Source of the DNA: Prevotella sp.
Lineage (GTDB): Bacteria; Bacteroidota; Bacteroidia; Bacteroidales; Bacteroidaceae
Direction of reading: 5' to 3'
DNA length: 60,728 nt
NCBI GenBank assembly: GCA_017449025.1
Contig: JAFSKJ010000006.1
Location: 1 to 60,728, forward strand
Shown piece after piece: positions 36,962 to 60,163 of this stretch. The position numbers were made by a program, and so were the translations under genes. The notes under the pieces are model-generated. The model did no database searches, had not been told where the DNA came from, and was given only the letters and a program-made list of their open reading frames with translations. Numbering within the stretch: position 1 is the stretch's first letter; every line of letters begins with the position of its first letter.

Positions 36962-37069
36962 TCTTTTGTTTCCAAGTGGGACGAAATCGGGAATCCGCTG
37001 AGCCGTAAATCCGCTGAGCCCTATTTTGAAATAATAAAAGTGGGATAAGGTAACAGACAAAATAAAAAA

Positions 37070-37395
37070 TGATTATCCGCTATCGTACCACCAAGACGCT
37101 GAAAGCGTCGCCTCTCAATAACTCTAAATTTGCAGCGTCCGAAGGACCTGCGGACAAATGAAGGCTGCGGTTGAAATGACGCTGAAAGCGTCTTCGCTCA
37201 GTAACCGCAGTGTCTGAAGGACCTGCGGGCAAATGAAGGCTGCGGAACGCACTCTGAAAGAGTGCCCCATCACATCGGAAGGGCGACCCCTTCAGGGTCG
37301 ATACTGGCGCAGACTGACATCCGGTGGTGCTGCGCACACCCCGTTATTGAGCGTTAACGCTTTCAGCGTATTGGTGGTAATATTGCGGATAATCA
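37070..37395. mobile_element. TIR-bounded cassette filled with mini-hairpins, 326 bp
   Basis: The ends are TGATTATCCGC-N5-TACCACCAA (37070-37094) and the inverted form (37371-37395). The interior, read on the minus strand, is a mosaic of tiny perfect hairpins with TTC-type loops: GACGCTTTCAGCGTC twice, GTCCTTCGGAC, GCACTCTTTCAGAGTGC and CGACCCTGAAGGGGTCG. It carries two tandem units of the GCAGCCTTCATTTG..CGCAGGTCCTTC block. Reading frames across it on the minus strand appear to be repeat by-products. It shares ends with 144-272 and filling with 58697-58946 and 60590-60728. Confidence 0.65.
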
Positions 37396-37402
37396 TTAAA
37401 TA

Positions 37403-37432
37403 AAAAGAGAACCCTTCATCAGGCTCTCTTTT
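37403..37432 (-). terminator. Terminator of the tRNA-Ser/tRNA-Glu transcript
   Basis: On the minus strand AAAAGAGA pairs with TCTCTTTT, followed by a T-rich stretch (TTTTTATTT). It lies 12 bp after tRNA-Glu. Confidence 0.7.
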
Positions 37433-56894: not shown

Positions 56895-57171
56895 GGTGAG
56901 TGGTGACCACTATTCACCTATTTACTGTTTGACTATTTACTATTTATTTACGATTGGGCTATTTAGCTATTTGCTGCGCACCTTATCGGTTGTATTAATT
57001 ATTAACTGAGCCCACTTTAAAGTGGGCTCATCTGTTACATTGTTATAGATTGCGCAATTATCGAGAAAGATGATGGATCCAATAACTGGAGCCACATCGG
57101 CAAACGGTTAAACAAACTTAAAAAGCGGAGTATTGGCGCATAATTATGAAGTATAGTTTAGAATAATTTGC
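56895..57171. other. Gene-free AT-rich region with a perfect palindrome
   Basis: After the LRR gene there are short TATTTAC repeats (about 56929-56985), then a 24-bp perfect palindrome at 57007-57030 (GAGCCCACTTT/AAAGTGGGCTC) that can terminate transcription. No convincing gene or RNA is seen. Confidence 0.6.
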
Positions 57172-57179
57172 TATATTTG
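57172..57179 (+). promoter_or_regulatory. Promoter -7 element of the first ATPase gene
   Basis: TATATTTG, 24 bp before the ATG at 57204. Confidence 0.5.
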
Positions 57180-57203
57180 CAAAGTAAACATAAGAATATT
57201 GCT

Positions 57204-58481
57204 ATGGATAAGCAAATTATCAAGACCGTCATTGCCGAAAAGCAACAGCAAATAGGAAAGACGAAATTGTTGCAAAGGGCTGGACATTTCGATGAGCATT
57301 CCTGTTATGTGCTCGTCGGTATTCGTCGTTCTGGAAAGTCATACACGCTTTATCAGGATATGCAAGCCAAGCTCTCTGCAGGAAAAGCCACCCATGAAGA
57401 CTTCCTTTACATCAATTTTGAGGACGAGCGCCTGGCCTCGATAAAGTCTGAAGAACTGGGCTTGTTGCTTGATGCTTATTGTGAGATGTACGACCAGAAA
57501 CATCCTCTGATTTATCTTGATGAGATACAGAATATTGCAGGATGGGAGAAATTTGCCCGAAGACTGGCTGAAGAAAAACGCCAAGTGATGATTACGGGTA
57601 GCAACGCAAAAATGCTCAGCCGTGAGATAGCCTCCACACTTGGCGGCAGTTATATCCAGTGCAATATCTATCCCTTCTCCTTCGAAGAGTATCTGAACTA
57701 TTACGGCATCCAGCTTGACAAGAACTGGACGTTCCAGCCAGACATACGGCTGACGGTATTGCGTCATTTCAACGAGTATTTCTATCGTGGCGGGTTTGCC
57801 GAATCGTTCGACAAGACAGACAAGCGGGAATGGCTCACCTCGCTCTATCAGAAAATACTGATGGGTGACATCGTGGAGCGCAATAAGATCCGTAATCCGC
57901 GCATCTTCAGACTGTTGGCAAGGAAACTGGCCGACAGTGTGATGCAGCCAACCACGCTGAAACGCCTGGAGCACATCATCAAGTCAACGGGCGACAGTAT
58001 CAGTCCAACAGTACTGAAAGACTACCTCGACTATATGGAGGATGCCTATCTCATATTCTCCATACCAAACCTCGTCTCACCCTTGACCGAACAGCAGACT
58101 ATCGTAAAGCGCTATTTTGCCGATAATGGCATATTGAACCTCTTCTTGACGGGTGGAGAAACCAAATTATTGGAGAATATCGTTGCCATTCATCTGAACA
58201 AGCTATACCCCAACACTGCAGAAGAGCTGCGCCTATTCTATTACAATAAAGGCGTAGAGATAGATTTCTGCATACCAGAGGTGAACAAAGCCATCCAGGT
58301 ATCCAATAGCATCGATGATCTGGACACATACGAACGCGAAGTGGGAGGACTCATCAAATTTCTGAAAGCATATAAGCAGTATCAGGGTACTATCATTACA
58401 TGGGATACTGAACGGCAAATAACAGAAGACGGCATCACCATTGAGGCCATTCCCGTCTGGAAATGGTTGTTACAAAAGTAA
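57204..58481 (+). CDS. AAA ATP-binding protein with DUF4143, eroded nuclease-like end
   Basis: This 425-residue P-loop ATPase has Walker A GIRRSGKSYTLY (about 38-49), Walker B LIYLDEIQNI (about 102-111) and sensor ITGSNAKMLSREIA (about 130). The middle region is YPFSFEEYLNYYG. The C-terminal DUF4143 part ends with LFYYNKGVEIDFCIPEVNKA, where the PD-(D/E)XK triad E-D-(E/Q)xK is weakened (IQVS instead of EIK). Such ATPases are common, often horizontally acquired, with no settled function. The ATG at 57204 starts MDKQIIKTV. A second ATPase lies 540 bp downstream. Confidence 0.85.
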   Translation: MDKQIIKTVIAEKQQQIGKTKLLQRAGHFDEHSCYVLVGIRRSGKSYTLYQDMQAKLSAGKATHEDFLYINFEDERLASIKSEELGLLLDAYCEMYDQKHPLIYLDEIQNIAGWEKFARRLAEEKRQVMITGSNAKMLSREIASTLGGSYIQCNIYPFSFEEYLNYYGIQLDKNWTFQPDIRLTVLRHFNEYFYRGGFAESFDKTDKREWLTSLYQKILMGDIVERNKIRNPRIFRLLARKLADSVMQPTTLKRLEHIIKSTGDSISPTVLKDYLDYMEDAYLIFSIPNLVSPLTEQQTIVKRYFADNGILNLFLTGGETKLLENIVAIHLNKLYPNTAEELRLFYYNKGVEIDFCIPEVNKAIQVSNSIDDLDTYEREVGGLIKFLKAYKQYQGTIITWDTERQITEDGITIEAIPVWKWLLQK

Positions 58482-58652: not shown

Positions 58653-58683
58653 TTGCAAATTCTTCAGAATATACCTATCTTTG
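58653..58683 (+). promoter_or_regulatory. Perfect promoter with a long leader to the second ATPase
   Basis: TTG at 58653-58655, a 20-bp spacer, then TATCTTTG at 58676-58683. The next gene starts at 59024, so the transcript would begin with a leader of about 330 nt that includes the hairpin cassette 58697-58946. Confidence 0.75.
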
Positions 58684-58696
58684 CACCGCAAAAAAG

Positions 58697-58946
58697 TTCG
58701 ACCTGATTTCTATGGTTGACCCGCTGTATGACCGCAAAGCGGTCGCCGCTCAATAACTCGGGCGGTGCGAAGCACACCCGGTGGAGGCGAGGGGCAAGCA
58801 TCGACCCTAAAAGGGTCGCCCACTTGAGCTGTTGGGGCACTCTTCCAGAGTGCATTCCGCAGCCTTCATTTGCCAGCAGGTCCTTCGGACACTACGGTTC
58901 CTGAGCGAAGACGCTTTCAGCGTCATTTTCTACCGTACAGGTCGAA
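58697..58946 (+). repeat. Mini-hairpin repeat cassette
   Basis: The cassette is flanked by inverted TTCGACCTG (58697-58705) and CAGGTCGAA (58938-58946). It contains in order the perfect mini-hairpins GACCGCAAAGCGGTC, CGACCCTAAAAGGGTCG, GCACTCTTCCAGAGTGC, GTCCTTCGGAC and GACGCTTTCAGCGTC. The GCAGCCTTCATTTG and TGAGCGAAGACGC blocks are shared with 37070-37395 and 60590-60728. It is inside the predicted leader of the second ATPase. Confidence 0.8.
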
Positions 58947-59023
58947 AAAGTTTCAAATATCGGGACCGTATTCCTGAATTTTACAGAAATTTCGGAAGTA
59001 TCATTACTTTTTTCAGAGGTTTT

Positions 59024-60163
59024 ATGTACAAGAGAATATTTGATATTGAAAGAAAACTGGACGAAGGAATGTTTCTGTTTGGCGCACGTCAGACGGGGAA
59101 GTCAACCCTTTTGAAAGAGCGGTTCAAAGGGGCAGTTTATTATGATTTGCTGGACCCGAATCTGAGAAAGGCTTTTAAAAGGAATCCCAACTCACTAAAA
59201 GAAGCTCTTTGGGACAAGCCTGCTGGCACGCTTGTCATAATAGATGAGATTCAGAAAGTGCCAGAGTTGTTGGATATAGTACATACCCTAATGGTGGATA
59301 AAGGATTGTTCTTCATCCTCAGTGGTTCCAGCGCAAGGAAACTCAAGCGTTCAGGAGTCAACACACTTGGAGGTCGTGCCATACCAGAAACACTTTATCC
59401 CCTTGTATGGCCGGAAGTGACCGATTTCCAGATAGATCGTGCCGTGCAGAATGGTATGATTCCCCGTCATTATATGGTAGAGGATGCCACCAAACGTCTT
59501 TCCGGCTATGTAAAGGTGTATCTGGACGAAGAAATCAGGGAGGAAGGCGAAGTGAGAGAACTCGATGCCTTTGAACGGTTTATGGAGATTGCCGCCATTT
59601 CCGACGGCGAGATGCTGAACTATTCAAATATCGCCTCTGACTGCGGCGTGTCTGCCAAAACGGTCAAGTCGTACTTCCAAATCCTTTATGATACGCTTAT
59701 CGGATACGAGATTCCTGCATTCAGGAAAGAAATCAAACGGAAGATAGTCCAGGCTCCCAGATTCTACTATTTCGATGTCGGACTGGCCAACTACCTGATG
59801 GGGCGCCACTCCTTGAAGCGGGGTACAGATGATTACGGACACGCTTTCGAGCACTTTGTGATGCAGGAAATCATTGCATACAAAGGATACAACGACAAGC
59901 GTGACACTATCTCCTATTGGCACACCTACGACAAAAAAGAGGTGGATGTCGTTATAGGCGATGCCAAGGTGGCTATTGAGATTAAATCGACGGAGCATGT
60001 GGAAACAAAACATAAAAAAGGGCTCAAGGCTTTCAAAGAGGAACATCCTGATTGCCGCCTGATTCTCGTGTCCCTTGATCCGATTACCCGCAAATCAGGT
60101 GACAAGGAACTTATCTACGTCCTAGACTTCTTGAAAATGCTTTGGAATGGTAATCTTTTTTAG
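59024..60163 (+). CDS. AAA ATP-binding protein with DUF4143 and intact PD-(D/E)XK-like end
   Basis: This 379-residue P-loop ATPase starts MYKRIFDIERKLDEGMFLFG. Walker A is GARQTGKSTLLKE (about 20-32), Walker B LVIIDEIQKV (about 71-80) and the sensor is LSGSSARKLKRSG (about 99). A winged-helix-like region follows at about 195-220 (YSNIASDCGVSAKTVKSYFQ). The C-terminal DUF4143 domain ends in EVDVVIGDAKVAIEIKSTE (about 305-323), a well-formed nuclease-like motif (D...EIK). The ATG at 59024 was chosen for fit to the family start. The frame upstream runs through repeat sequence. Function is unknown for the family. Confidence 0.85.
   Translation: MYKRIFDIERKLDEGMFLFGARQTGKSTLLKERFKGAVYYDLLDPNLRKAFKRNPNSLKEALWDKPAGTLVIIDEIQKVPELLDIVHTLMVDKGLFFILSGSSARKLKRSGVNTLGGRAIPETLYPLVWPEVTDFQIDRAVQNGMIPRHYMVEDATKRLSGYVKVYLDEEIREEGEVRELDAFERFMEIAAISDGEMLNYSNIASDCGVSAKTVKSYFQILYDTLIGYEIPAFRKEIKRKIVQAPRFYYFDVGLANYLMGRHSLKRGTDDYGHAFEHFVMQEIIAYKGYNDKRDTISYWHTYDKKEVDVVIGDAKVAIEIKSTEHVETKHKKGLKAFKEEHPDCRLILVSLDPITRKSGDKELIYVLDFLKMLWNGNLF

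Follow-up and report, generated by a model that had tools for sequence, protein, structure and literature searches.

What is a cluster of short hairpins doing between the promoter and the start codon of an ATPase gene? The question was raised by a window of Prevotella DNA (the whole stretch analyzed here, 60,728 nt), in which the first-pass annotation had singled out such a cassette, had suggested that it is transcribed as a leader, and had proposed a functional tie between it and the ATPase that follows.

The hairpin cassette and its surroundings

The gene in question (59024-60163, plus strand) encodes an AAA_14 + DUF4143 ATPase of 379 aa, and its upstream neighbour on the same strand encodes a second AAA_14 + DUF4143 ATPase (57168-58481). 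The predicted Bacteroidetes-type promoter of the former (58653-58683, plus strand) was found as the first-pass annotation had described it, with TTG at 58653-58655, TATCTTTG at 58676-58683, and a spacer of 20 bp. Taken alone, this match is weak, because 16 TTG/TATCTTTG arrangements with spacers of 18-22 bp occur over both strands of the window; the leader alignment showed that TATCTTTG is kept in the leaders of the orthologues L262-L265.

The cassette itself spans 246 bp (58699-58944, plus strand). Its left terminal inverted repeat (58699-58705, plus strand) is altered inward relative to the family end CGWSCTGTGCGGTTGA, hereafter TIR-1, and its right terminal inverted repeat (58929-58944, minus strand) has two mismatches to that end. 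The inverted flanks noticed earlier, TTCGACCTG (58697-58705) and CAGGTCGAA (58938-58946), do form a perfect 9-bp inverted pair, and where at least five perfect mini-hairpins had been claimed, six short stems with 3-nt loops can be read from the sequence between them. All lie on the plus strand and, numbered as helices of the covariation count below, they are GACCGC-AAA-GCGGTC (helix 1, 58730-58744), the hairpin around GTGC-GAA-GCAC (helix 2, 58759-58781, with the 3-nt-loop stem itself at 58765-58775), CGACCCT-AAA-AGGGTCG (helix 3, 58802-58818), GCACTCT-TCC-AGAGTGC (helix 5, 58837-58853), GTCC-TTC-GGAC (helix 7, 58880-58890), and GACGCT-TTC-AGCGTC (helix 8, 58910-58924). The start codon of the ATPase follows the end of the element after 79 bases, in agreement with the distance of about 78 bp given before.

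Two features of the locus were absent from the first-pass annotation. One is an 8-bp direct duplication outside the inverted ends, with AAAAAGTT as its left copy at 58691-58698 and its right copy at 58945-58952 (both plus strand). The other is the presence of further copies and pieces in the same window. At 37068-37397 (minus strand), an interior homologous to the hairpin core of the cassette is bounded by different ends, AATGATTATCCGC, hereafter TIR-2, and the duplication AAATAAAA flanks this second element on both sides (37060-37067 and 37398-37405); the element with its duplications (37060-37405) lies between tRNA genes. A further cassette copy is cut by the contig end (60592-60728, minus strand) and the right end of another TIR-1 element by the contig start (1-26, plus strand), so that the window itself begins and finishes within a TIR-1 element. 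A TIR-2 pair adjoining a TIR-1 end was also observed (142-273 and 310-368).

The cassette as a mobile repeat

Searching the own genome of the window, a 3.5-Mb draft in 134 contigs with 80.65% completeness, gave at least 49 cassette matches (40 of 122 candidates were scored), with some places represented by two pieces. Over the window and 36 other stretches of DNA, 48 non-overlapping matches were counted, including 23 complete copies of 234-268 bp, which are too short for a transposase gene, lie on many contigs, and typically end in TIR-1, inverted at the opposite end. Sites with at most two mismatches to TIR-1 numbered 125 in this genome, compared with 3 for the reversed control, and among the 100 of these 125 places that were listed, TIR-1 lay within the first 400 bases of at least 25 of the 134 contigs; a repeat family found near so many contig starts of a draft matters for the assembly of such genomes. 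Of 26 placed copies, the TIR-2 element among them, none lay inside a longer open frame as judged by a crude frame call, and their neighbour genes were co-directional in 13 cases, divergent in five, convergent in four, and not classed in four. In the copy alignment, no other row exceeds 82% identity to the window copy, which is therefore not a recent jump.

Outside this genome, the exact 18-base TIR-1 pattern was absent from the other genomes of a family-level set of 399; since the 399 include other genomes of the same genus, the pattern is a strict one. With one mismatch allowed to 16 bases, TIR-1-like sites were found in 38 of 299 genomes of the genus, some being chance matches inside genes. 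The exact end with an A/T-rich flank occurred among named genomes in 18 stretches, all of them metagenome-assembled Prevotella, Prevotellaceae or Bacteroidaceae, for which the sites named were goat rumen, reticulum, omasum or abomasum, and buffalo rumen. Neither a blastn search of the cassette against phages and plasmids nor an exact search of two TIR-1 patterns against viral contigs gave a match.

The 8-bp duplication was then scored in the 23 complete copies taken from the 48 non-overlapping matches. It was perfect in 10 and had at most one mismatch in 13, whereas random re-pairing of left and right flanks gave means of 0.5 and 1.7, with maxima of 4 and 6, respectively. The left duplications have a G+C content of 15%, compared with 43% for the flanks and 58% for the elements. 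Among the 10 copies without a duplication within one mismatch, four (L018, L030, L036, and L037) have one right flank in common, which could mean that they are mis-assembled or lie within another repeat.

Orthologues of the ATPase with 89-97% identity are present in other species of the genus, and they provide the empty site. The cassette was absent from all seven alignable close orthologous leaders (L260-L266; L267 was excluded since its start could not be placed), and the upstream regions of the orthologues are continuous across the insertion point as far as the start codon. When the element and one copy of the duplication are removed, the flanks in the window align with these leaders. Thus, since the orthologous leaders lack the element and have alignable flanks, the element lengthened a pre-existing leader. 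A blastn search of the 33 orthologue stretches L260-L292, which answers the earlier suggestion to look for the cassette upstream of related DUF4143 ATPases, found the positive control alone. Common terminal inverted repeats, a duplication of fixed 8-bp length, a short and dispersed unit without a transposase gene, and an empty site are features by which a MITE is recognized, and these four were found for the cassette.

The hairpins inside the element are nevertheless not arbitrary. On either strand, the fold of the cassette is stronger than expected by chance (z -4.55 and -4.12; none of 200 shuffles each reached it). For covariation, 41 of 132 matches were aligned, from several species and mostly near-complete, one being the core of the TIR-2 element. 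The consensus structure of 41 pairs was formed in 97.1% of the cells, and 19 of the 41 pairs had changed on both sides, compared with a shuffle mean of 8.6 (none of 500 shuffles reached 19) and with two to nine pairs for slid structures; a pair of this kind occurred in seven of the eight helices. Because the copies are related and whole hairpins have been exchanged, the number of independent events is smaller than the number of cells and the shuffles overstate the excess. Such exchanges can be read from the alignment, for example GACCGC-AAA-GCGGTC in place of GACGCT-GAA-AGCGTC, and in one copy (L239:592-825) the middle part is in inverted orientation. The covariation check that had been suggested for the stems thus came out positive, but over copies at unrelated loci, and since the stems covary, the hairpins are maintained. 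At curated Rfam thresholds the window gave three tRNAs and nothing else; with relaxed limits there were only chance-level matches at the cassette, the best E-value in the all-family scan of the locus being 2.5.

Could the cassette be a structured leader RNA that controls the ATPase, or the RNA or DNA substrate of that protein? Its position between a promoter kept in orthologues and the start codon makes it likely, judged from the sequence, that the cassette is transcribed as part of the leader, and its stems do fold better than shuffles and covary; they fold about equally well on both strands, however, and the copies are scattered beside other genes through the own genome, which is the pattern named in advance as speaking against a tie. 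Nine DUF4143 matches are present in that genome, and among the cassette matches listed, none came within 2 kb of any but the window pair; the nearest other case is on contig C130, where the distance from the DUF4143 match to a partial relative is about 2 kb. When both ATPases of the window were used as tblastn queries, the 76 other stretches that hold copies or ends gave nothing at E 1e-3, and the positive control was found; the two ATPases find each other only at 3e-4, and the search therefore reaches close relatives and may miss distant paralogues. Together with the absence of the cassette from the close orthologous leaders and the orthologue stretches, these results do not support a functional tie of the cassette to the ATPase, and the leader or substrate role, already contradicted, retains hardly any probability. 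An origin as a REP/BIME-type composite, in which hairpin repeats are spread on single-stranded DNA by a REP-associated tyrosine (HUH) transposase, would account for the clustering of short palindromes in intergenic regions and for the exchange of whole hairpins among copies. We regard it as very improbable all the same, as terminal inverted repeats together with a target duplication of 8 bp are a mark of DDE transposition and IS200/IS605-type HUH elements are not known to leave a target duplication. The reading that deserves most attention among the alternatives is that selection acts on the hairpin core, for instance as a structured small RNA, a protein-binding site, or a site involved in supercoiling, and that the TIR-1 and TIR-2 elements merely carry it. 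The same core does occur within TIR-1 (58699-58944) and TIR-2 (37068-37397) ends, and compensating changes keep its stems across species. On the other hand, the core has no Rfam family match, and TIR-1 is found around other interiors as well, the smallest being a near-empty element of 42 bp, so that the ends move without the core; we therefore consider this reading unlikely, though by no means negligible. It is very probable that the cassette is one copy of a MITE-like non-autonomous DNA transposon family of Prevotella relatives, and it lies in the ATPase leader most likely by chance. A striking hairpin cluster is in this way explained as a transposon copy.

The range of DNA enclosed by TIR-1 bears on how such an element would move. 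With matching 8-bp duplications, TIR-1 bounds elements of 42 bp (L171), 89 bp (L146), 120 bp (L061), approximately 238 bp (the cassette type), 627 bp (L083), and 637 bp (L166), the interiors of which differ and in many cases hold other palindromic repeats, as read from the sequence. A single terminal signal bounding 42 to 637 bp makes a good system for studying what a trans-acting transposase requires. No transposase gene was seen between paired TIR-1 ends in the stretches read, with frames judged by eye. The search for a parent insertion sequence covered the IS1595, ISL3, and ISAzo13 families, the own genome being a draft of the completeness given above; IS1595 and ISL3 were looked for in 36 relatives each, ISAzo13 in 100 relatives, and a 70-aa IS1595-type query was run on 249 genomes of the genus; in none of the loci read did TIR-1 flank a transposase gene.

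Two candidates for a mobilizing gene were considered and rejected. In L124 and L160, what is by eye an ISAzo13-type transposase ends at TIR-1, but fragments alone remain, the last frame runs into TIR-1, and a second end with a matching duplication was not found; in L160 (G315:C24, approximately 2094-2701) the fragments abut TIR-1 as if captured in a TIR-1 element. The 315-aa frame of L088 (G000:C78, 418-1362) belongs to the IS1595 family but seems by eye to be without the usual acidic residues, so that its catalytic residues appear lost; this frame is possibly a domesticated relative, and the palindrome GTGCGGTTTAACCGC before its promoter resembles the TIR-1 core. A different arrangement was seen in L137 (G233:C81), where three near-identical 22-bp units, each consisting of a TIR-1-like end and AAAATTC, stand in tandem without an interior.

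The TIR-2 ends lead to a recognizable family. In L179, TIR-2 is present at both ends of an element (208 to 2532) that has the duplication ATAATTTA and a 317-aa frame, and the frames of L179, L180, and L181 match IS1595 transposase models above cut-offs. Four pieces of an IS1595-type gene lie at contig ends in the own genome (C42, C47, C106, and C107), and TIR-2 is present at the ends of these pieces. The window element at 37068-37397, with AATGATTATCCGC at both ends as in L179 and an 8-bp duplication, is thus itself of the IS1595-type MITE kind. The ends of the cassette at 58699-58944 do not fit this kind, as the IS1595-type elements read have other ends and TIR-1 and TIR-2 are unlike in sequence. 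In several other stretches (L056, L057, L059, and L063 among them), TIR-2 sequence comes next on the inner side of a TIR-1 end, as though insertion of TIR-2 elements into TIR-1 elements had produced a nested arrangement.

Under the transposon reading, a transposase supplied in trans would recognize TIR-1 and, making cuts with an 8-bp stagger, would insert the element into A/T-rich intergenic DNA. The likeliest mobilizing enzyme would be of the IS1595 type, since IS1595-type elements of the same genus also leave A/T-rich 8-bp duplications and since the same hairpin core occurs between IS1595-type ends. The hairpins would be a passenger structure kept either by selection or by whole-hairpin copying between elements, and might perhaps shield ends or transcripts. 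At the locus under study, the element would have fallen between the ATPase promoter and the start codon and lengthened the leader by 254 nt, and any effect on the ATPase, while possible, would be incidental.

Repeats and palindromes upstream of the ATPase genes

When the upstream regions of the ATPase orthologues were analyzed, another type of repeat appeared. Distant orthologues (51-59% identity) carry tandem palindromic units such as ATTTTCAATGAAAATCCTCAGTAG, placed 32 nt apart, which corresponds to roughly three helical turns. A tandem repeat exceeding that of shuffles was found in 18 of 32 upstream regions, that is, in 18 of the 25 more distant orthologues and in none of the seven closest, compared with one of 36 control genes of the window, and the best lag was 31 or 32 in 23 of the 32. 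Summed over the 32 regions, lag 32 reached z 10.8 and lag 64 z 4.1; because lags also stand out in the control genes (42, 24, and 51, the best being 42, with a combined z of up to 5.0), these statistics are reliable only as comparisons. As judged by eye, L268-L276 and others have the units between promoter and start codon, and L284-L291 and others have them upstream of the promoter. Thus, since their side of the promoter differs by group, they cannot act as leader RNA alone.

In the close orthologues a palindrome takes the place of the tandem repeat, for example CGTACTCCCGAATTTTATGGAAAAATCGGGAGTACG (L266, z 7.8). The window retains a worn native leader motif outside the cassette (58960-59002, plus strand), which aligns with this palindrome; 19 of 39 positions are identical at lag 32 and 22 of 41 at lag 30, and its palindrome is not significant. 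Within the subfamily, significant palindromes were found in 12 of 33 leaders, that of the window not being among them. Another DUF4143 gene of the own genome (L294, G000:C108) is preceded by a further tandem repeat of about 23 bp, CCAAGCAAAAACTTACCAAACAA, in approximately three copies.

DUF4143 genes were also examined across the order, in which 84 of 99 genomes have a DUF4143 match. L300 and L308, which gave no frame, and the truncated L316 were excluded from the lag and palindrome tests. The lag test had its top at 19, with lag 33 at z 1.8, which argues against the 32-bp period as a general rule. Long palindromes within 150 nt of the DUF4143 start (L299-L328), mostly of differing sequence, occurred in 15 of 27 cases, compared with four of 43 own-genome controls; against controls from the same stretches the figures were 13 of 27 and four of 23 (Fisher p 0.036). 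The order-wide excess of palindromes near DUF4143 starts is suggestive only. Several of these palindromes overlap a TAnnTTTG box.

The 32-bp-period repeat is tied to this ATPase subfamily as a DNA-level, operator-like candidate site, and the simplest reading of it, which we put forward as a lead, would be an autoregulatory or self-recognition site. It is a better candidate than the cassette for the control element that the first-pass annotation had sought, and its tie to the ATPases gives a testable prediction for a common protein family. A bolder pair of proposals, more apt to fail than to hold, would be that the AAA_14/DUF4143 ATPase-nucleases of Bacteroidales recognize private palindromic or tandem-palindromic promoter sites, with the 32-bp period in this subfamily, and, for the cassette, that TIR-1 might be a general mobilization signal by which one transposase moves DNA of nearly any kind, over a size range from 42 bp to above 600 bp, when it is set between two ends. 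The ATPase would recognize its private site as a repressor, or the site would be a target that the ATPase must be kept from cutting. If that holds, the earlier annotation would be right about the leader and wrong about which of its elements matters.

Relation to known elements

The transposon family of the cassette was not found described, being ordinary in kind and unusual in its covarying hairpin interior and very variable cargo; a search of the open-licence literature on MITEs, Prevotella, the rumen, IS1595, and hairpin or intergenic repeats gave no title describing it, which does not prove that it is absent. Like the cassette, the REP/BIME, BOX, and RU/ERIC repeats are dispersed, palindromic, and intergenic. 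REP and BOX units are not known to have a target duplication, in contrast to the defined 8-bp duplication and terminal repeats of the cassette. Duplications of 8 bp, as in the cassette, are usual for insertion sequences of the IS1595 family (PMC8101967). Elements of that family with TIR-2 ends occur in the genus, and the TIR-2 element of the window carries the hairpin core of the cassette; their TIR-2 differs, however, from the TIR-1 of the cassette, between the ends of which no transposase gene was seen.

Porphyromonas gingivalis belongs to the Bacteroidales, as does the host of the cassette. Its MITEs (BrickBuilt, MITE239, MITE464/PgRS, and MITE700) have terminal inverted repeats, as the cassette does, and in the published description the MITE types show near-identical ends over unrelated interiors, with BrickBuilt always intergenic and having an interior of tandem repeats (PMC4596501). 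Their ends match IS5-family elements, whereas no insertion sequence with the ends of the cassette was found in the present analysis; the BrickBuilt duplications vary in length, whereas that of the cassette is 8 bp and A/T-rich; and the interior of the cassette is, unlike theirs, a covarying array of hairpins. Among the open-licence titles searched, the closest described counterpart of the cassette family is BrickBuilt of P. gingivalis (PMC4596501).
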